Assembly: GCA_029262515.1 (NCBI GenBank)
Contig: JAJCZH010000001.1
Location: forward strand, 1 to 57,608
Direction: 5' to 3'
Source of the DNA: Deltaproteobacteria bacterium
GTDB taxonomy: Bacteria > Desulfobacterota > GWC2-55-46 > JADFVP01
Length of the DNA stretch: 57,608 bases
Shown: positions 18,077 to 31,112 of the stretch, in pieces
How positions within the stretch are numbered: the first letter of the stretch is position 1
Layout of the letters: the number at the start of each line of letters is the position of its first letter
Notes under the pieces: generated by a model
Databases searched by the model: none
What the model saw: the letters and a program-made list of their open reading frames with translations, nothing else
What the model was told of the DNA's origin: nothing
Position numbers and translations under genes: made by a program

Positions 18077-18092
18077 TGGCATGCTTATTGCT
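18077..18092 (+). promoter_or_regulatory. Sigma-54 promoter of the ANTAR regulator
   Basis: TGGCATG-N4-TTGCT matches the -24/-12 consensus, with exactly ten bases between GG (18078-18079) and GC (18090-18091). The predicted start of transcription is near 18103, only about two bases before the ATG at 18105, so the mRNA would be almost leaderless. An NtrB/NtrC pair that could activate it is encoded at 28565-31112. Confidence 0.75.
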
Positions 18093-18104
18093 TATACTAT
18101 TGCC

Positions 18105-18674
18105 ATGAAGAGAAGAGTCGCAATAGTCGATGATGATGCCGTTACAAGAGAGGTGCTCGGGGCCATGATAGAGGAGTGTGGTTATTCTGTGGTGGCTGAA
18201 GGTGTCAGCGGGTTTGATGCCATCGAGATCTGTGCGGCGAATAAGGTCGATCTTCTTATAATGGATATAGACATGCCAGGTATGAGCGGGCTCGAGGCCT
18301 CCAGGAAAATCAATGACGAAACGCCTACGCCGATACTGCTTGTTACGGGGCTTTACGATCAGTCTGTTATCAGAAGCGCTATTGAGGCCGGAGTGAGCGC
18401 TTATGTCGTAAAACCCGTGCGTCTCGAAGAGATAGAACCTGCTGTAGAGTTTGCTCTTTCACACGCCGGTGAGTGCAGAGGACTCAGAGAGAAGGTGGAT
18501 GAGCTTCAGGGTGTGCTCGCTTCGAGGCAGGTGATCGAGAGGGCCAAAGGGCTATTGATGAAGCACAACGGTATAGACGAAGCCGAGGCATTTGCGCGCA
18601 TAAGGAAGATGAGCATGGACAAGAGGAGACGCATGGTCGATGTTGCAGAGGCCGTTATCTTAACGCTCGAATAG
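18105..18674 (+). CDS. ANTAR-domain response regulator (RNA-binding antiterminator, NasT/AmiR type)
   Basis: A 189-residue two-domain protein. Residues 1-120 are a receiver with the acidic cluster VDDD, the phospho-acceptor Asp54 in LLIMDIDMPG and the lysine in VVKPVRLEE. Residues about 128-186 are an ANTAR domain: VIERAKGLLMKHNGIDEAEAF is the RNA-binding helix signature, followed by RKMSMDKRRRMVDVAEAV. ANTAR proteins bind paired hairpins with six-base loops in leader RNAs and prevent termination, often in nitrogen genes. The ATG at 18105 is used because the earlier ATG at 18081 lies inside the sigma-54 promoter. No partner kinase or NasS-like sensor is adjacent. Its probable RNA target is the glnK leader at 22523-22618. 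Confidence 0.93.
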   Translation: MKRRVAIVDDDAVTREVLGAMIEECGYSVVAEGVSGFDAIEICAANKVDLLIMDIDMPGMSGLEASRKINDETPTPILLVTGLYDQSVIRSAIEAGVSAYVVKPVRLEEIEPAVEFALSHAGECRGLREKVDELQGVLASRQVIERAKGLLMKHNGIDEAEAFARIRKMSMDKRRRMVDVAEAVILTLE

Positions 18675-21014: not shown

Positions 21015-21031
21015 TGGCATTGAAGTTGCAA
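21015..21031 (+). promoter_or_regulatory. Sigma-54 promoter of amtB1
   Basis: TGGCAT-N5-TTGCAA with ten bases between GG (21016-21017) and GC (21028-21029). The predicted transcript starts near 21041, giving a leader of about 108 bases before the amtB1 start codon at 21149. The remainder of the 400-base gap from 20749 holds the porin terminator, the dyad and this promoter, and no gene. Confidence 0.75.
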
Positions 21032-21044
21032 TACTTATAGGGGT

Positions 21045-21097
21045 GCAGAGAAGTTTACTATTTAATCTCTGCCTCTTTGGGTCGCAATGGTGCGGCC
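21045..21097 (+). promoter_or_regulatory. Tandem hairpins in the amtB1 leader, one with an ANTAR-like loop
   Basis: The first hairpin pairs GCAGAGA (21045-21051) with TCTCTGC (21066-21072) around a 14-base loop. The second pairs GGTCGC (21080-21085) with GCGGCC (21092-21097) around the six-base loop AATGGT, which has A at position 1 and G at position 4 as in ANTAR targets. Only the second hairpin fits the ANTAR rule and no clear terminator follows it, so the assignment is tentative. Confidence 0.35.
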
Positions 21098-21148
21098 GCA
21101 TGCAAGTTACTGCCAAACGGTCAAAGAAGATCAGGAGGTTGGTTAGAG

Positions 21149-22471
21149 ATGTTATTTTTAAGACTGCGTACCGGTTTATCGGTTATACCGGTTAGATTAT
21201 TTTTTGTGCTGGCGCTCTTGTTCGCGACTCTTTTATTAACTTCGGACGCTTTTGCAGGTGATACCGCAGAGGCTGCGATCGACAAGGCCGACACTGCCTG
21301 GCTTCTAATCTCAACTGCCATGGTAATGTTTATGACTCCTGGCCTCGCGCTCTTTTACGCAGGCATGGCCCGCAGAAAGAATGTGCTCGGCACTATGATG
21401 CACAGTTACTTTCTTCTAAGCCTCATAACCCTTCAGTGGGTACTCTGGGGTTATTCATTAAGTTTTGGTACGGATGTGGCGGGCATAGTGGGCGGGGTCA
21501 ACTACTTCGGTCTTTCAGGCGTCGGCATTGAGGCGAACGGCACGATACCTCACCTGCTCTTCATGGCCTTTCAAGGCATGTTCGCGGTAATAACCGTGGC
21601 CCTTATTACCGGCGGAGTTGCCGAGAGGGTAAAGTTTTCAGCCATACTGCTATTCAGTCTTATCTGGGCAACTCTGGTCTACGATCCGCTCTGCCACTGG
21701 GTCTGGGGCGGCGGGTGGATGGCTAAGCTCGGGGTGCTCGATTTTGCGGGAGGCATAGTCGTCCATATAAGCTGCGGCATAGCAGCACTCGTTGCGGCGG
21801 TAGTAGTCGGCAAGAGACGCGGGTGGCCGAAGGAGCTTATGCCGCCTCATAACCTTACGCTCACTCTTATGGGCATGGGCATACTCTGGTTCGGCTGGTT
21901 CGGTTTTAATGCGGGCAGCGCGCTGGCGGCCGACGGTTCAGCAGTTATCGCTTTTATTAATACGAATACCGCAGCGGCAGCCGGAACCATCGCCTGGACT
22001 GCGGTGGAGTGGGCCAAGGGCGGAAAACCGACACTTCTCGGCGCGATGTCCGGCACCGTGGCTGGGCTAGGTTCCATTACTCCGGCGGCTGGTTTCGTAA
22101 CACCTGCGGCTTCTATTATCATCGGCCTCGTAGGAGGCGGGCTCTGTTACTGGACGGTAACCGTACTAAAGATGAAGTTCCGTTATGACGACACCCTCGA
22201 TGTTTTCGGTATTCACGGTGTCGCCGGAACATGGGGCACCATCGCAACCGGTATCTTCGCTTCCGTCGGAGCCAGGGGGCTTCTGCAAGGCAACCCGCGA
22301 CAGCTTCTCGTGCAGGTTATTGCAGCGGTCGCAACTATAATCTTTACGGCGGTTATGACGTACCTGATCCTTAAGGTCGTTGATAAGACAGTAGGCCTGA
22401 GGGTTGACGATGAAGGGGAGTTCGAGGGGCTCGATCTTTCGCAGCACGGCGAGAGCGGTTATATCCTCTAG
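21149..22471 (+). CDS. amtB: Ammonium transporter AmtB (first copy)
   Basis: A 440-residue precursor. The start is the ATG at 21149, preceded by AGGAGG; a longer frame from 21077 lacks a ribosome-binding site and would bury the signal peptide. A cleavable signal peptide (about 1-36, ending DAFA-GD) is followed by eleven predicted membrane helices. Signature elements are TPGLALFYAGM, the paired pore histidines in VVHISCGIAAL and VFGIHGVAGTWG, and FGWFGFNAGSA. AmtB channels ammonium or ammonia inward and is blocked by PII. glnK follows, then a second amtB. Confidence 0.96.
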   Translation: MLFLRLRTGLSVIPVRLFFVLALLFATLLLTSDAFAGDTAEAAIDKADTAWLLISTAMVMFMTPGLALFYAGMARRKNVLGTMMHSYFLLSLITLQWVLWGYSLSFGTDVAGIVGGVNYFGLSGVGIEANGTIPHLLFMAFQGMFAVITVALITGGVAERVKFSAILLFSLIWATLVYDPLCHWVWGGGWMAKLGVLDFAGGIVVHISCGIAALVAAVVVGKRRGWPKELMPPHNLTLTLMGMGILWFGWFGFNAGSALAADGSAVIAFINTNTAAAAGTIAWTAVEWAKGGKPTLLGAMSGTVAGLGSITPAAGFVTPAASIIIGLVGGGLCYWTVTVLKMKFRYDDTLDVFGIHGVAGTWGTIATGIFASVGARGLLQGNPRQLLVQVIAAVATIIFTAVMTYLILKVVDKTVGLRVDDEGEFEGLDLSQHGESGYIL

Positions 22472-22522: not shown

Positions 22523-22577
22523 TCCGAAACAGCGTTGTTTTGGAAAATATTTAGACAGAGGCAAGGGCGCCTTCTGT
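22523..22577 (+). promoter_or_regulatory. ANTAR RNA-binding motif (paired six-base-loop hairpins) in the glnK leader
   Basis: Hairpin P1: TCCGAAAC (22523-22530), loop AGCGTT, GTTTTGGA (22537-22544), eight pairs including one G-U. A ten-base linker follows. Hairpin P2: ACAGAGGC (22555-22562), loop AAGGGC, GCCTTCTGT (22569-22577), eight pairs with one bulged T. Both loops are six bases with A at position 1 and G at position 4, the published recognition rule for ANTAR proteins. The 3' arm of P2 is reused as the 5' arm of the terminator at 22566-22618, so P2 works as an antiterminator when bound. An ANTAR regulator is encoded at 18105 in the same block. Confidence 0.88.
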
Positions 22578-22618
22578 GGAGACGAGTAGAGGCTCGCGTA
22601 CAGGGGCGTCTTTTTTTT
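22566..22618 (+). terminator. Conditional terminator in the glnK leader
   Basis: The 5' arm (22566-22577) pairs with the 3' arm ACAGGGGCGTC (22600-22610), eleven pairs with one bulged C, followed by eight T (22611-22618). The 22-base loop contains a small CGAG/CTCG hairpin. The 5' arm overlaps the ANTAR hairpin P2, so the two folds cannot coexist. Read-through would extend transcription into glnK, amtB2 and possibly nirB. Confidence 0.85.
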
Positions 22619-22651: not shown

Positions 22652-22993
<342 letters not shown>

Positions 22994-23084: not shown

Positions 23085-24362
23085 ATGTTTCGCAGCTTAA
23101 TACTAACGGCAATCTTCTGTCTTGTGACCCCTGCCATTTCTATGGCAGAGGAGGCGCCGGCTACGATAGACTCAGGGGATACGGCGTGGATACTGATCTC
23201 CACTGCCCTTGTAATGTTGATGACACCGGGGCTCGCGCTCTTTTATGCCGGTATGGTTCGGTCAAAAAACGTGCTCGGTACGTTGATGCACAGTTTTATT
23301 ATGCTTCTGCTGATATCCGTCGTATGGGTTCTGTGGGGCTATTCGCTCTCATTTGCGCCCGATGCTTTGGGCGGCATAGTCGGCGGCCTCAATTACTTCG
23401 GGCTTACAGGCGTAGGAGTCGAGCCGAACGGTACGATACCGCATTCGCTCTTTATGCTCTTTCAGGGGACCTTTGCGATAATTACGGTTGCGCTTATAAC
23501 AGGAGCGTTCGCCGAGAGGGTGAAGTTCTCAGCTCTTTTGATCTTTGCCGTTCTCTGGAGCACCATTGTCTACGCTCCGCTCTGCCACTGGGTCTGGGGC
23601 GGCGGCTGGATAGGCGCTATGGGCGCTCTCGACTTTGCCGGAGGCACGGTTGTTCATATCAGCTCGGGCATCTCGGCCCTCGTCTTCTGCATAGTTATAG
23701 GCAAGCGTAAGAACTATCCGAGGGAGCATGCACCGCCGCATAACCTGCCGATGACGCTTTTAGGAACGGCTCTGCTGTGGTTTGGCTGGTTCGGTTTCAA
23801 CGGCGGCAGCGCATTGGCGGCCGACGGTGTTGCGGTTGTCGCAATGGTAGCCACCAACACGGCGGCAGCGGCAGCGGGACTGACATGGCTCTTTGTAGAA
23901 TGGATACACAGGGGTAAACCGACAGTGCTTGGAGCAGCCTCCGGGGCGGTAGCAGGCCTTGTCGGCATAACGCCGGGCGCCGGTTTTGTCGGCCCGATGT
24001 CTGCACTTATAATTGGCGCGGGCGCCGGGTTCCTCTGTTACTTTGCCGTCAGTTACCTGAAGCCGAAACTCGGTTATGACGACACGCTCGACGTCTTCGG
24101 TATCCATGGTATCGGTGGAATATGGGGTGCGCTCGCTACCGGGCTCTTCGCCTCTATAGGGGCCGAAGGCCTTTTCTTCGGCAACCCGGGGCAGATGGTG
24201 CCGCAGATAGTCGGTGTTGTTGCTACTATAATCCTCGCTGTTGTGGCGACCTACATCATCTTAAAGGTGGTCAATGCGATCGTAGGGCTCAGGGTGAGTG
24301 ACGAGAACGAGGTTATGGGACTAGATATCTCGGAGCACGGCGAGAGCGGTTATACGACTTAA
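23085..24362 (+). CDS. amtB: Ammonium transporter AmtB (second copy)
   Basis: A 425-residue paralogue of the transporter at 21149, with a signal peptide (about 1-21, ending SMA-EE) and the same landmarks: TPGLALFYAGMV, the pore histidines in VVHISSGISAL and VFGIHGIGGIWG, and the C-terminal tail SEHGESGYTT that contacts PII. It follows glnK by 91 bases with a good GGAAGGAG ribosome-binding site. The two copies diverge enough to be old duplicates. They may differ in affinity or in PII control. Confidence 0.96.
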   Translation: MFRSLILTAIFCLVTPAISMAEEAPATIDSGDTAWILISTALVMLMTPGLALFYAGMVRSKNVLGTLMHSFIMLLLISVVWVLWGYSLSFAPDALGGIVGGLNYFGLTGVGVEPNGTIPHSLFMLFQGTFAIITVALITGAFAERVKFSALLIFAVLWSTIVYAPLCHWVWGGGWIGAMGALDFAGGTVVHISSGISALVFCIVIGKRKNYPREHAPPHNLPMTLLGTALLWFGWFGFNGGSALAADGVAVVAMVATNTAAAAAGLTWLFVEWIHRGKPTVLGAASGAVAGLVGITPGAGFVGPMSALIIGAGAGFLCYFAVSYLKPKLGYDDTLDVFGIHGIGGIWGALATGLFASIGAEGLFFGNPGQMVPQIVGVVATIILAVVATYIILKVVNAIVGLRVSDENEVMGLDISEHGESGYTT

Positions 24363-24372
24363 GCGTTCTATG

Positions 24373-24409
24373 GTCTTTCCTGATCGATAGCCTGCGGTTA
24401 GAGAAAGAC
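24373..24409 (+). promoter_or_regulatory. Long hairpin in the nirB leader
   Basis: GTCTTTCCTGATCG (24373-24386) pairs with CGGTTAG and GAAAGAC (24395-24409) through 14 pairs with one bulged A, around the eight-base loop ATAGCCTG. The loop begins with A and has G at position 4 but is two bases longer than a canonical ANTAR loop. No T-run follows, so it is not a simple terminator of amtB2. A regulatory role is inferred. Confidence 0.55.
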
Positions 24410-24422
24410 GGTATAAGAGGGG

Positions 24423-24465
24423 CGCCCTGGCCATTACATCCTCCGGCCGGGGCGTTCCTGTTTTT
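24423..24465 (+). terminator. Terminator-like hairpin before nirB
   Basis: CGCCCTGGCC (24423-24432) and GGCCGGGGCG (24445-24454) pair over ten bases around a 12-base loop, followed by TTCCTGTTTTT. It may end amtB2 transcription or act as an attenuator controlling entry into nirB. A third small hairpin (GCCCTA 24475-24480 with TAGGGC 24484-24489) lies just before the nirB ribosome-binding site. Confidence 0.7.
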
Positions 24466-24507: not shown

Positions 24508-26913
24508 ATGAAACTGAATAAAGAGAGGCTCGTAGTTGTCGGCGGCGGAATGGCCGGGGCCGCCTGCATAGATGAGGTCATAGCGCAAGAGCCGGAAAGG
24601 TACGATATAACGTTCCTTTCCGCCGAGGCGCAGGTGAACTACAACAGGGTGCTTCTGGCCCAGGTGCTGCGCGGAGAAAAGGGTGCGGCGGAGATATCGC
24701 TGCAAGAGCCGGACTGGTACGCGAAGAACGAGATAACTCTTCATGCGGGCTGCAGGGTTGAGAGGATAGACAGGCATGCCCGCTCTGTTACCGACGCCGA
24801 GGGCAGGCAGTTTCCGTACGACAAGCTGGTGCTTGCCACTGGTTCAAAGGCCCTTGTGCCTGATATACCGGGAGCCGGACTCGACGGAGTGGTCTGCTTC
24901 CGGGATCTAGACGATACCGGCAAGATAAAAGCCATACTGGAGCGCGGCGAGACGCAGAAGAGGGTCGCCGTCATAGGCGGCGGGCTTCTCGGCCTGGAGG
25001 TTGCTTATAGTCTCAGCAGCTTGGGTGCCGAAGTAACGGTTGTACACCTGATGGACCGGTTGATGGAGCGCCAGGTGGACGGTGTGGCCGCAGAGCTCCT
25101 GACCAATGACCTGATAAATCTCGGTGTGGAGGTAAAGCTCAGCCATGAGAGTATTGAGATAACGGGTAGCGAATCTGTTGATGGCCTTAAGTTCTCCGAC
25201 GGTACAGCCATAGATGTCGATATGGTTGTAATGTCGATAGGCATAAGGCCGAATATAGGACTTGCCGCTGGTTCAGGCATCTATTGCGAGAAGGGCATTG
25301 TCGTAAGCGACGTTATGCAGACTTACGACCCTGCGGTCTTCGCAATTGGCGAGTGCGTGCAGCACAGGGGCCGTACCTTCGGCCTTGTTGCGTCTGTCTT
25401 CGAGCAGGCGCGCGTTCTGGCAAATCATCTTGCCGGCGACTGCAGGCTCTACTTTACCGACAGGCCCAGCCCCACGCGGCTTAAGGTGCCGGGTATAAAT
25501 CTCTACTCCGCCGGTGAGGTCGAGCAGGGCCCCGGAACAGAGAGTATCGAATACTTAGACCGGGGGGCCGGTCTTTATAAAAAGGTTTTGATTAAGGACG
25601 ATACCATTAAGGGGGTTATCCTTTATGGCGACGTAATAGACGGCCCGGAACTCTTCGCTCTTCTGGTCGAAGAGGTCGATATATCACCTAGAAGACACCG
25701 TCTGCTCTTTGGTATGGGTGGAACCGGTGGAACCGGGGCAGTCCTGTCCGTTAAGGACTTGCCGGATGAGACTATAGTTTGCGGCTGTAACGGAGTGACC
25801 AAGGGCACGATAGTTGAGGCGATTGAGCAGAAGGGGCTCTTTACCGCCGAAGAGGTATCGCTTGAGACCAAGGCCTCGGCCTCTTGCGGCGGCTGCTCGG
25901 GTCTTGTGGAGAGGATATTAGAGAGTGTGCTCGGTTCCGGTTTCGATGCCTCTTTGGCCCGCACCGGCATCTGCGCCTGTACTCCGTACTCGAGAGAGGA
26001 AATCGTCAAGTACATTAAAGAGCAGGGGCTCAGGTCGGTCGAGGATGTTATGGAGAGGCTCGGCTGGGAGTCGGTCGGTTGCGAGACATGCCGTCCGGCG
26101 TTGAACTATTACGTCAATATGGTATGGCCCGAGAGCGCGGTTGACGACAGGAGTTCGAGGCTTATAAACGAGCGGGCTCATGCCAATATCCAGAACGATG
26201 GACGTTTTTCGGTTGTGCCCAGGGTTAATGGCGGGGTCATCACCCCGGATGAGCTTAAGAGAATCGCTGATGCGGCAATAAAGTACGACGTCGATCTCGT
26301 AAAGATCACTGGCGGCACCCGAATTGGTCTTTACGGAGTTAACAGGGATGACCTGCCAAAAGTCTGGGGCGATATAGGCATGGAGTCCGGTTATGCTTAC
26401 GCAAAGGCCGTTAGAACCGTCAAAACGTGTGTTGGCGAGCGCTTTTGCAGGTACGGCACTCAGGACTCGACCGGGCTAGGTGTTGAGCTTGAAGGTCTGC
26501 TAGGCGGGCTCTCTACTCCGGCGAAGGTGAAATTCGGAGTGGACGGATGCCCGAGGAACTGCGCAGAGAGCGCTGTTAAGGACATAGGTATTACCGGTGT
26601 GGCAGGCGGTTGGGAGATCTATGTTGGAGGCGGGGCAGGAATAGAGCTTTTTGGAGGTGAGAAGCTGGCTACGGTCGAGAGCAAGGCCGAAGTAGTAGAA
26701 ATAGCAGGCGCCTTCTTGCAGAAGTACAGAGAAGAGGCCGTGTACGGCGAGAGAACGGCCAGGTGGGTTAAGAGGGTTGGTATCGAAGCGCTAAAGAGAA
26801 CGGTTGTGGAGAGTATAGATGAAAGGGGTGAACTTGTCGAGAGGCTTCATACGGCGCTGAAAGGAATGAAAGACCCGTGGGAGCAGGCGCGCAAGTCACA
26901 AGCGCAGGCATAG
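24508..26913 (+). CDS. nirB: Assimilatory nitrite reductase large subunit NirB
   Basis: An 801-residue multidomain enzyme. Residues 1-290 are the FAD/NAD(P)H pyridine-nucleotide oxidoreductase domain (VVVGGGMAGAACIDE, then VIGGGLLGLEVA). A BFD-like [2Fe-2S] region follows at about 420-480 (CGCNGVTKGTI, then SCGGCSGLV). The C-terminal nitrite/sulfite reductase domain (about 555-760) has the siroheme and 4Fe-4S cysteines in CVGERFC and CPRNCAE. It reduces nitrite to ammonium in the cytoplasm. The small subunit NirD and the assimilatory nitrate reductase are not in the window. It ends 20 bases before the convergent PilZ gene. Confidence 0.95.
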   Translation: MKLNKERLVVVGGGMAGAACIDEVIAQEPERYDITFLSAEAQVNYNRVLLAQVLRGEKGAAEISLQEPDWYAKNEITLHAGCRVERIDRHARSVTDAEGRQFPYDKLVLATGSKALVPDIPGAGLDGVVCFRDLDDTGKIKAILERGETQKRVAVIGGGLLGLEVAYSLSSLGAEVTVVHLMDRLMERQVDGVAAELLTNDLINLGVEVKLSHESIEITGSESVDGLKFSDGTAIDVDMVVMSIGIRPNIGLAAGSGIYCEKGIVVSDVMQTYDPAVFAIGECVQHRGRTFGLVASVFEQARVLANHLAGDCRLYFTDRPSPTRLKVPGINLYSAGEVEQGPGTESIEYLDRGAGLYKKVLIKDDTIKGVILYGDVIDGPELFALLVEEVDISPRRHRLLFGMGGTGGTGAVLSVKDLPDETIVCGCNGVTKGTIVEAIEQKGLFTAEEVSLETKASASCGGCSGLVERILESVLGSGFDASLARTGICACTPYSREEIVKYIKEQGLRSVEDVMERLGWESVGCETCRPALNYYVNMVWPESAVDDRSSRLINERAHANIQNDGRFSVVPRVNGGVITPDELKRIADAAIKYDVDLVKITGGTRIGLYGVNRDDLPKVWGDIGMESGYAYAKAVRTVKTCVGERFCRYGTQDSTGLGVELEGLLGGLSTPAKVKFGVDGCPRNCAESAVKDIGITGVAGGWEIYVGGGAGIELFGGEKLATVESKAEVVEIAGAFLQKYREEAVYGERTARWVKRVGIEALKRTVVESIDERGELVERLHTALKGMKDPWEQARKSQAQA

Positions 26914-27929: not shown

Positions 27930-28568
27930 TTAAGAATCTGTAATTTTTTTTACTATTTTAGTTGTATTGGCGGTTATGTCGTCCGAGAGCAGTATTGCCG
28001 AGATCATTGCCACTGCGCTTACCCCTGTGGCCAGCACACTCGGCAGGTTCGCTTCCGTTATACCCCCTATTGCAACTACCGGAAGGTTCACTTTTTCAAC
28101 TATTTTCCTCAAGTGCTCCAAACCTTTGGGGCTCTCTGCGTCCTGTTTGGTCTGTGTAGAGTAGATTGGACCGACAGCGATATAATCGGCTCCAAGCTTC
28201 TCGGCCTCAAGGGCCTCTTCAATATTATGGGTTGAGAGCCCGACTATTTTTGAGCCCTTCAGCAGATCCCTGACATCGTCGAGCGGCAAGTCCACCTGGC
28301 CGATATGTACGCCGTCGGCGTCTGATAACATGGCTATGTCCACTCTGTCGTTTACTATAAAGGTTGCTCCGTTCTTGGCGCACAGCACCTTCAGAAGTCG
28401 GGCTGCACGGAGTTTGTCTGCGGCTTTGAGCCCCTTGGCTCTTAGCTGTATGGTCTTGCATCCGCCGTCTAAAATCTTTGTAGCAACAGGGCCGATGTCG
28501 GCAACGGCAACATACGTGGTGTCTATTATAGCATAGAGACCTGTGGGTATTGATGTGTCGTTGGTCAC
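27930..28568 (-). CDS. thiE: Thiamine-phosphate synthase
   Basis: A 212-residue TIM-barrel ThiE. Key segments are TIQLRAKGLK, FIVNDRVDIAMLSDADGVHIGQVDLP, VGLSTHNIEEALEAEK, YIAVGPIYSTQTKQD and VAIGGI. It joins the hydroxymethylpyrimidine and thiazole phosphates to give thiamine phosphate. Its ATG overlaps the ntrC stop codon by four bases, so it is translationally coupled to ntrC, an unusual pairing for a vitamin gene. Confidence 0.95.
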   Translation of the reverse strand: MTNDTSIPTGLYAIIDTTYVAVADIGPVATKILDGGCKTIQLRAKGLKAADKLRAARLLKVLCAKNGATFIVNDRVDIAMLSDADGVHIGQVDLPLDDVRDLLKGSKIVGLSTHNIEEALEAEKLGADYIAVGPIYSTQTKQDAESPKGLEHLRKIVEKVNLPVVAIGGITEANLPSVLATGVSAVAMISAILLSDDITANTTKIVKKITDS

Positions 28569-30019
28569 TCGGCCCCCTTGATCTTCTTCATATTAATGTC
28601 CAGCTGTTTTATCTTTTTTCTCAGAGTATTCCTGTTGATCCCTAGTACCTCGGCGGCCTGTACCTGATTGCCCCGCACCTTTTCGAGTACGAGCCGTATG
28701 AGAGGCCCTTCCATATAAGGCATGCAGAGGTCGTATAGGTCGTGCTGCTGCTGGTGGTCGGCACGCTCGATAACCGGCCTCAGTTTCTCGGTAATAATCT
28801 CTTCGAGCGAGGGTTGCCTCTTTTTCGAGTTCGGCAGCTCAAGGTCTTCTTCCGTAATTACTGCGCCGGGCGAGAGAAGGACGGCTCTTCTAAGAACATT
28901 TTCAAGCTCCCTGACATTACCGCTCCACCTGTAAGTTTCGAGCGCCTGATGCGCTTTTGGCGATAGGCGCTTGGCAGAGCACTTGAGTTCGTGCGGAAAG
29001 CGCAACATGAAGTGCTCTACCAGCAGGCCTATATCTTCTTCTCTTTCTCTTAGCGGGGGCAGTTCTATCCGTATGCCGTTGAGCCTGTGATAGAGGTCTT
29101 CACGGAATTTTTTTTCGGTAACGGCCTTGTTCATATCGATATTCGTTGCCGCCACTATCCTTACGTCGACCCTTACCGGCTTTTTTCCCCCGAGCCTGTA
29201 GAACTCACCATCCTGGGTAACCCGCAGCAGGCGGGCCTGAAGGTCTAGGCTCATGTCTCCGACCTCGTCGAGAAAGAGCGTGCCCTTGTTCGCAAGTTCA
29301 AACTTGCCGAATTTCATCTCCGTAGCTCCGGTAAAGGCACCTTTTTCGTGGCCGAAGAGTTCGCTTTCGAGCAGTTCTTTTGGCACTGCTGCAGAGTTTA
29401 CGGCTATAAAGGGTCCTTCGCTGCGGGAGCTGTGCATGTGGATTACACGCGAGAGTTGCTCTTTGCCGGTGCCGGACTCGCCGGTTAGCAGTACTGCGAC
29501 GTCGGTCGGCGCGGCGCGGCCGATGGCCTTGAATACCTGTTCCATCGCTTTTGACTTGCCGATAAAGGCGTTTTCATCCTCTTCTCTGTCGCGGAGCTTT
29601 TGGTTGAGTTTTAAGAGGCGGGCCTGAAGCTCTCTCTTCTCTTTTGCTCGCCCGACTATGATCTCAAGTTCCGCCAGATCGAACGGCTTTGAGACGTAAT
29701 CGAAGGCGCCAAGCTTCATCGCTTCTATTGTATTGCTCATGCTGGTCTCTGCAGTCATTATGATAACCGGTGTTGTCTCCGTCGTCACTTCGGCGCTTAT
29801 TCCGGAAGCGGCCTTCTTTAAAACTTCGAGCCCGTCACGGCCAGGCATATTGATGTCGAGGATGGCGAGTTCCGGTTTAACGGTACCTAGCAGGTCTGAG
29901 GCATCTGTGCCGTTATCGGCCTGTATCACCTCGTAACCGAGGTCGCGGAAGAAGCTTTCGAGTACCCAGCGTATGGACTCGTCATCATCGGCGATCAATA
30001 CCTTCTCTTGTGTTGTCAT
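28565..30019 (-). CDS. ntrC: Sigma-54 response regulator NtrC
   Basis: A 484-residue bacterial enhancer-binding protein. The receiver domain has the phospho-acceptor Asp55 in LAILDINMPG. The AAA+ domain has Walker A GESGTGKEQ, the sigma-54-contacting GAFTGA loop, and an arginine-finger region. A C-terminal Fis-type helix-turn-helix (VRGNQVQAAEVLGINRNTLRKKI) binds enhancers. With NtrB it responds to nitrogen status through PII. It is the natural activator of the sigma-54 promoters at 18077 and 21015. Order is ntrB-ntrC-thiE on the minus strand. Confidence 0.94.
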   Translation of the reverse strand: MTTQEKVLIADDDESIRWVLESFFRDLGYEVIQADNGTDASDLLGTVKPELAILDINMPGRDGLEVLKKAASGISAEVTTETTPVIIMTAETSMSNTIEAMKLGAFDYVSKPFDLAELEIIVGRAKEKRELQARLLKLNQKLRDREEDENAFIGKSKAMEQVFKAIGRAAPTDVAVLLTGESGTGKEQLSRVIHMHSSRSEGPFIAVNSAAVPKELLESELFGHEKGAFTGATEMKFGKFELANKGTLFLDEVGDMSLDLQARLLRVTQDGEFYRLGGKKPVRVDVRIVAATNIDMNKAVTEKKFREDLYHRLNGIRIELPPLREREEDIGLLVEHFMLRFPHELKCSAKRLSPKAHQALETYRWSGNVRELENVLRRAVLLSPGAVITEEDLELPNSKKRQPSLEEIITEKLRPVIERADHQQQHDLYDLCMPYMEGPLIRLVLEKVRGNQVQAAEVLGINRNTLRKKIKQLDINMKKIKGAE

Positions 30020-30050
30020 CTGCTCTCTCTACTCTCAGGTTGTTTATTTC

Positions 30051-31112
30051 TCAGGCCGTCGGCAGGTAGACCGTTATAGTGCTGCCTTTGCCGGGTATTG
30101 AGTCGATTTTTATGAGTCCGTGATGCTCGTGCACTATCTTTAAAGAGAGCGCCATGCCGAGTCCAGAACCTTTCGACTTGGTCGTAAAGAAGGGTGTGAA
30201 GACCTGTTCCATGTCGGTTTTTTCAATACCCGTGCCGTTATCGTGAATCAGTATTTCCGCCATCTTGCCGGGCCGAGCGCCCTCTTCGGCAAGATGAAAG
30301 TCGGTACCCATTCTGGTCTCGATTCTGACCGTACCTTGTCTGCCAGTGTTGGCTGTCGCCTCTACTCCGTTCTTTATCAGGTTAAGAAATACCTGCCTCA
30401 GGGTGCCGGCGTCTCCCGATATAGGGGGCAGGCTGGGGTCGTATGCCCGTATCAGTTCAACTCCCTCGTCTGTTAAGAGCGAGACGGTTGAGTCGAGAAG
30501 CTGGTGGATATTCAACTCTTTGGCTTCCATACGCGCCGGGCGGGAGAAGTCGAGCATATTTTCGACTATCGAATTGAGCCGGTCGGCCTCCCTTATGATG
30601 AGGTCCGCGTAGTCGGTAAGTCTCGTGTCGTCCGTCTTGCGGGTTATGAGCTGGGCGGCGCCTCTAAGTCCTCCGAGCGGGTTCTTGATCTCGTGAGCGA
30701 GGTTGGCGGCAAAGGTTCCGATGTAGGCGAGCCGGTCCTTTCTTAGCGTTGCGCCCTCCATTGCCTTTATGCCGGAGCGGTCCTTTATAGCGGCCAGCGC
30801 CCCTATGACCTCTCCGTTATTATCGAAGATCCTGTTGGTGGTAATGCCAACAGCGACCGGGCCGGCAAACCTTCTCGAAAGGGTTTCAGGGTGGTCGGTA
30901 AGCAGGCGGCCGGTATTTATGGCGGATGAGATTGAGTCAACAAAATCGGTATCTTTAGGAAAGATATACCCTAGTGAACGGCCTATTGCCGTGGTTCTGG
31001 AGACCTCGCACAACGCCTCTGCCTCTTGGTTGAAGCAGCGTATGTAGAGTCTGTTGTCTACCCCTATAATACCGTCGGGCAGGCTCTCTAAAACATCTTC
31101 GTTTGTGATCAA
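30051..31112 (-). CDS. ntrB: Nitrogen sensor histidine kinase NtrB
   Basis: A 353-residue soluble kinase with no membrane segment. It has an N-terminal PAS domain (about 8-110), a HisKA domain with the phospho-acceptor His140 in NLAHEIKNPLGG, and a HATPase domain with NLIKNGVEA, DNGTGIE and GSGLGMALSLKIV. NtrB phosphorylates NtrC under nitrogen limitation and is held in phosphatase mode by PII. It lies 31 bases upstream of ntrC. It is divergent from the Nudix gene. Confidence 0.93.
   Translation of the reverse strand: MITNEDVLESLPDGIIGVDNRLYIRCFNQEAEALCEVSRTTAIGRSLGYIFPKDTDFVDSISSAINTGRLLTDHPETLSRRFAGPVAVGITTNRIFDNNGEVIGALAAIKDRSGIKAMEGATLRKDRLAYIGTFAANLAHEIKNPLGGLRGAAQLITRKTDDTRLTDYADLIIREADRLNSIVENMLDFSRPARMEAKELNIHQLLDSTVSLLTDEGVELIRAYDPSLPPISGDAGTLRQVFLNLIKNGVEATANTGRQGTVRIETRMGTDFHLAEEGARPGKMAEILIHDNGTGIEKTDMEQVFTPFFTTKSKGSGLGMALSLKIVHEHHGLIKIDSIPGKGSTITVYLPTA

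Follow-up and report, generated by a model that had tools for sequence, protein, structure and literature searches.

A predicted ANTAR-controlled terminator ahead of the PII gene glnK in a deltaproteobacterial nitrogen cluster

Described ANTAR attenuators and the switch before glnK

The closest described counterparts of the element presented here are the EutV/EutW attenuators of the Enterococcus faecalis eut operon (PMC3369931, PMC8934654). These share with it a response regulator-ANTAR protein, a pair of hexaloops carrying A1 and G4, an overlap between the P2 hairpin and the terminator, a short linker and the occurrence of several attenuators within one cluster. The present locus differs in its target genes for PII and ammonium transport, in its sigma-54-type promoters and in that no HisKA_2-type kinase was found. 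Similarities extend to the NasT/NasS and NasR systems of Paracoccus, Bradyrhizobium, Azotobacter and Klebsiella, which also combine an ANTAR protein with nitrogen genes and A1/G4 loops closed by a C:G pair, and which include nitrite reductase among their targets, as is seen here in relatives. In contrast to these systems, the present one lacks a NIT domain, and neither beside the gene nor elsewhere in the genome is there a convincing NasS. The SELEX consensus of NasR comprises a C:G closing pair, A1 and G4 (PMC7496416), and both loops of the window, i.e. the entire analysed stretch of 57,608 nucleotides, agree with it. Multi-site ANTAR regulons of nitrogen metabolism were predicted for Desulfotomaculum acetoxidans and Pelobacter carbinolicus (PMC3369931); the present case belongs to another lineage, and a single cluster brings together covariation, a syntenic reader gene and sigma-54-type promoters. 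Since the predicted ANTAR targets of Ramesh et al. 2012 (PMC3369931) include P-II and ammonium transporters, the proposal of the preliminary description that PII newly comes under RNA-level control does not stand as a novelty. Mutation of nasT lowers the expression of glnK2 in Bradyrhizobium diazoefficiens and of glnB in Paracoccus denitrificans (PMC6759348). The glnK switch adds a new, well-formed case to a known type of device, the ANTAR-controlled terminator, and introduces no new principle. Its association of sigma-54 promoters with ANTAR antitermination at nitrogen genes also resembles, by description, Geobacter GnfR, reportedly presented by Ueki and Lovley in 2010 as an antiterminator with a sigma-54 activator, which differs in that it acts on nitrogen-fixation genes.

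The following features were assigned in and behind the gap between amtB1 and glnK:

22523 to 22544, plus strand: P1, the putative recruitment hairpin, with hexaloop AGCGUU at 22531-22536 (sequence, fold, covariation in 25 leaders)
22545 to 22554, plus strand: P1-P2 linker of 10 nt (read from sequence)
22555 to 22577, plus strand: P2, the putative antiterminator hairpin, with hexaloop AAGGGC at 22563-22568 (sequence, fold, conserved core)
22566 to 22618, plus strand: intrinsic terminator, with 5' arm 22566-22577, 3' arm 22600-22610 and U8 at 22611-22618 (sequence and fold)
22655 to 22993, plus strand: glnK (PII), the first gene downstream of the switch (PF00543, 2.6e-30)

P1 has the layout UCCGAAAC[AGCGUU]GUUUUGGA with eight pairs, one of which is G-U, and its loop is closed by the pair C22530-G22537. 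P2 is arranged as ACAGAGGC[AAGGGC]GCC(U)UCUGU, where C22562-G22569 closes the loop and eight pairs require one bulged U at 22572/22573. Both hexaloops of the leader contain A1 and G4. The P2 3' arm is shared with the terminator 5' arm (22566-22577), which forms 11 pairs with 22600-22610 and contains the same bulge, and a GGAGG precedes the glnK start at 22655. The sequence bears out the two A1/G4 hexaloop hairpins and the ten-base linker of the preliminary description, and both counts of eight pairs per stem are correct, apart from the bulged U of P2 that had gone unmentioned; sequence and folding also agree with its placement of the P2 3' arm inside a terminator 5' arm, followed by eight T.

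When the growing transcript was folded, an RNA ending at 22577 adopted P1 plus P2 as its minimum-energy fold (-19.5 kcal/mol) and P2 stayed in the best fold until about 22601. From 22610-22613 onward, the terminator fold was best (-35.5), with P2 lost and P1 kept, the terminator stem alone contributing -25.6 kcal/mol. P2 and the terminator are therefore mutually exclusive, as the best fold shifts from one to the other while the transcript grows. Computation strongly supports a real ANTAR switch before glnK, with protein binding and antitermination as its predicted functions.

Conservation and covariation of glnK leaders

The gene glnK is present in 57 of 59 related genomes, many of which are incomplete, and the element is common to about 30-31 glnK leaders, drawn from numerous genera within the order and a few within the class. 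About 31 of these leaders share the P2 core GGC[AANGGC]GCC, and 5' of this core relatives carry a hairpin AC[NNNGNN]GT whose outer stem varies greatly, at a linker length that ranges from none to about 23 nt. The P2 3' arm doubles as a terminator arm in 29 of 31 leaders. An alignment of all leaders using MAFFT broke the P1 stems and was dropped in favor of a subset (A2) and gapless concatenations of P1 and P2 (A3). Similarly, automatic selection of P1 by the longest hexaloop stem was abandoned, as it took unrelated upstream hairpins in several leaders.

Covariation was counted for 13 pairs across 25 distinct leaders, a set picked partly by loop letters and including related sequences, in which 90.2% of positions were paired compared with 77.4% in shuffles. 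The covariation of the whole structure amounted to 0.345 versus 0.116 in shuffled data, a value reached in 0 of 500 shuffles, and sliding the partner by 1-3 columns lowered pairing to 35-47%. At P1, four of seven pairs show double-sided changes, so that the compensatory changes in relatives named as a check in the preliminary description are found in this hairpin; in P2, the outer pairs vary and the inner three are invariant. Because loop letters had contributed to the choice of the 25 leaders, loops were re-counted in hairpins chosen without them, with P1 taken by a rule (AC-N6-GT) blind to the loop and four mispicked sites excluded from the P2 tally. Here, G4 is invariant (27/27 in P1, 31/31 in P2), and A1 occurs in all 31 P2 loops and in 22 of 27 P1 loops, the remaining five having G. 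With regard to the loss of A1 or G4 across relatives, the other check proposed, G4 is never lost, while A1 is not absolute in P1.

Covariance models point in the same direction. Model R2, from whose training all genomes of the window's genus were left out, matches the window site with 35.2 bits (E=1.3e-8), the next best hit in the window scoring 11.3 bits. When the site itself is part of the model, the whole genome yields one clear match, followed by a hit of 13.8 bits. Among 198 sampled genomes of the phylum, seven contain a match at E<=1e-5, six of them in the window's class and one outside. No Rfam 15 family matched above its gathering threshold, and a permissive E-value applied to the leader likewise gave nothing relevant. 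One genome of the same genus (G001, L130:2625-3004) retains P2 in its glnK leader, with P1 not recognisable and a terminator that looks weak; this genome has no amtB1 ahead of glnK.

The likely reader and its gene cluster

Synteny extends through the order: apart from local variations, nearly every cluster read has the gene arrangement ANTAR-GATase-(porin)-amtB-glnK-amtB-nirB. In the window, the cluster comprises the following additional features:

18077 to 18092, plus strand: sigma-54-type element TGGCATgcttaTTGCT at the 5' side of the ANTAR gene (one mismatch; position shared by most relatives)
18081 to 18674, plus strand: response regulator-ANTAR protein (PF00072, 4.1e-26; PF03861, 8.2e-22), real start probably 18105
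21015 to 21030, plus strand: sigma-54-type -24/-12 element TGGCATtgaagTTGCA (exact match; conserved in genus and order)
21077 to 22471, plus strand: amtB1, the gene 5' of the switch (PF00909), real start probably 21148, with the ribosome-binding site AGGAGG ahead of it
21080 to 21097, plus strand: single hexaloop hairpin GGUCGC[AAUGGU]GCGGCC in the amtB1 leader, with an A1/G4 loop and without a terminator
23085 to 24362, plus strand: amtB2, the second gene downstream of the switch (PF00909)
24508 to 26913, plus strand: nirB-like nitrite reductase, the third gene of the run (domain match; leader inspected)

The open reading frame at 18081-18674, 4 kb upstream of the switch, likely encodes its reader. 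Its best PDB match is EutV (6wsh, 2.2e-36), whose sequence and numbering agree with the EutV residues given in PMC8934654. In a comparison restricted to EutV residues and mapped by alignment, the hexaloop-contact and dimer residues R142, E146, K149, E160, R168, M172, R175 and R177 are kept, the aromatic position 164 is retained as F (Y164 in EutV), and N173, K143 and K147 are replaced by D, Q and R, respectively. The receiver aspartate is present. Homologues in the scanned named genomes are distant, with 37-43% for full-length ones. The neighboring gene encodes a GATase and not NasS; the one NMT1_2 protein obtained in a genome search for NasS (NMT1_2) is lipoprotein-like, with the SsuA family as its best NCBIfam match, below cut-off. 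A kinase search directed at the HisKA_2 type (PF07568) gave no match in the genome, whose assembly is 98% complete.

An ANTAR domain was found in all 59 relatives, and two classes can be distinguished: "SMDKR", the class of the cluster, and "SQKEN", with Gln for Met172, which occurs in most relatives sampled (e.g. L143:3066-3716). In six genomes with the SQKEN class alone seen (G003, G014, G017, G021, G033, G049), no model match was obtained below E=0.01. Matches are weak or absent in several genomes that do encode a cluster-class protein (e.g. G006, G058). An exception of the opposite kind is G007, which has a match with the SQKEN class alone seen; this genome reaches 85% completeness, and its contig breaks off at that point. 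According to this tally, which covers part of the ANTAR proteins in genomes with strong motifs, two ANTAR classes exist and the hexaloop element tracks only one of them.

The element at 21015-21030 likely drives amtB1 and the transcript that enters the switch. In relatives, the first element of each cluster lies tens of bases 3' of a sigma-54-type -24/-12 sequence, to which 21015-21030 corresponds in the window, and a second such sequence stands immediately 5' of the ANTAR gene. The window counterpart of the latter stops about 12 bases short of the likely ATG (18077-18105), and comparable spacing in several relatives suggests that the ANTAR mRNA is nearly leaderless. In relatives, the same element is additionally found ahead of the porin gene, amtB2 and nirB. 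One further genome (G054, L134:14890-14966) has a sigma-54-type promoter and an ANTAR-like element immediately 5' of a nifH-like gene. Genes for an NtrC-like activator and an NtrB-like kinase lie close to the nitrogen cluster of the window (28565-31112, minus strand); this pair could provide the sigma-54 activator, and a link between it and the ANTAR protein is speculation, although the NtrB-like protein (30051-31112) is a first candidate for the kinase.

The set is altered in the window's genus, with three states: a full switch at glnK, a single hexaloop without terminator at amtB1 and a terminator without hexaloop at nirB. Conservation of the amtB1 hairpin (21080-21097) extends to three genomes within the genus, where one stem pair is C-G in the window and U-A in the two relatives, and a second hairpin of variable sequence precedes it; the amtB1 hairpin is possibly a vestigial or non-terminator ANTAR site. 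The nirB leader (24408-24465) keeps a terminator with a GGGGCGCC arm and has no hexaloop, at a place where relatives possess one.

Alternative readings and proposed mechanism

A chance likeness to the ANTAR consensus has to be considered for so small a motif. Two A1/G4 dual hexaloops of like quality and spacing arose when 60 sequences as long as the window were drawn from a first-order Markov model and read on one strand, with no terminator demanded; the expectation is thus about 0.03 for each strand of a window. The earlier judgment that chance is very unlikely is in line with this figure and finds much stronger support in the comparative data: a covariance model that is independent of the site refutes a chance origin, as do the synteny, the covariation and the conservation of the element, and its probability is practically negligible. 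A plain, unregulated terminator with incidental hexaloops, lowering glnK and amtB2 relative to amtB1, would account for the strong stem (-25.6 kcal/mol) and its intergenic position. However, P1 lies outside the terminator and has a covarying stem and an invariant loop G4 over many genera, and the element recurs ahead of other genes of the cluster beside an ANTAR gene, which renders such a terminator very improbable.

The site could also be a true ANTAR target whose reader is the other ANTAR protein encoded in the genome (G000:C4), or one that acts through sequestration or translation instead of antitermination. The genome does encode two ANTAR proteins, and non-terminator ANTAR sites were already proposed (PMC3369931). 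Against the second protein as reader stand its residues Q172, K173, N175 and K177, i.e. the absence of equivalents of Met172 and Arg175/Arg177, since the M172A and N173A/R175A/R177A mutants of EutV had lost binding (PMC8934654); against another mode of action stands the overlap of P2 and terminator in nearly all leaders. Taken together, this alternative is very improbable.

The reading preferred here is an intercistronic ANTAR-controlled attenuator, by which the ANTAR protein very probably gates glnK-amtB2(-nirB) through antitermination; we infer binding, antitermination as the direction of control and operon read-through. Transcription from the sigma-54-type promoter ahead of amtB1 would cross this gene, and transcripts would normally end at the terminator preceding glnK. 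Once the response regulator-ANTAR protein encoded upstream becomes active, probably phosphorylated and dimeric, the dimer may engage the P1 hexaloop first and P2 second, by analogy with EutV and NasR. Bound P2 would stay folded, its 3' arm would be kept from the terminator, and RNA polymerase could continue into glnK-amtB2(-nirB). With a terminator between amtB1 and glnK under ANTAR control, PII and the second transporter would be gated apart from amtB1. A more tentative extension, which we regard as rather doubtful, sees the cluster as a sigma-54 nitrogen-assimilation operon with serial gates, each gene being free to gain, lose or rebuild its attenuator. In the window's genus, the first attenuator, at amtB1, would have turned into a single ANTAR hexaloop without terminator, with translation or RNA stability as its possible point of action, and the full switch would be kept at the PII gene only.

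The supply of PII is usually discussed as NtrC-controlled. The locus offers a covariation-backed, order-wide ANTAR attenuator ahead of a PII gene, the likely reader of which is encoded within the cluster itself, and makes the 2012 prediction concrete: an RNA switch acting after initiation would be a further gate on PII supply. If attenuators do turn over gene by gene, PII dosage could be decoupled from transporter dosage.
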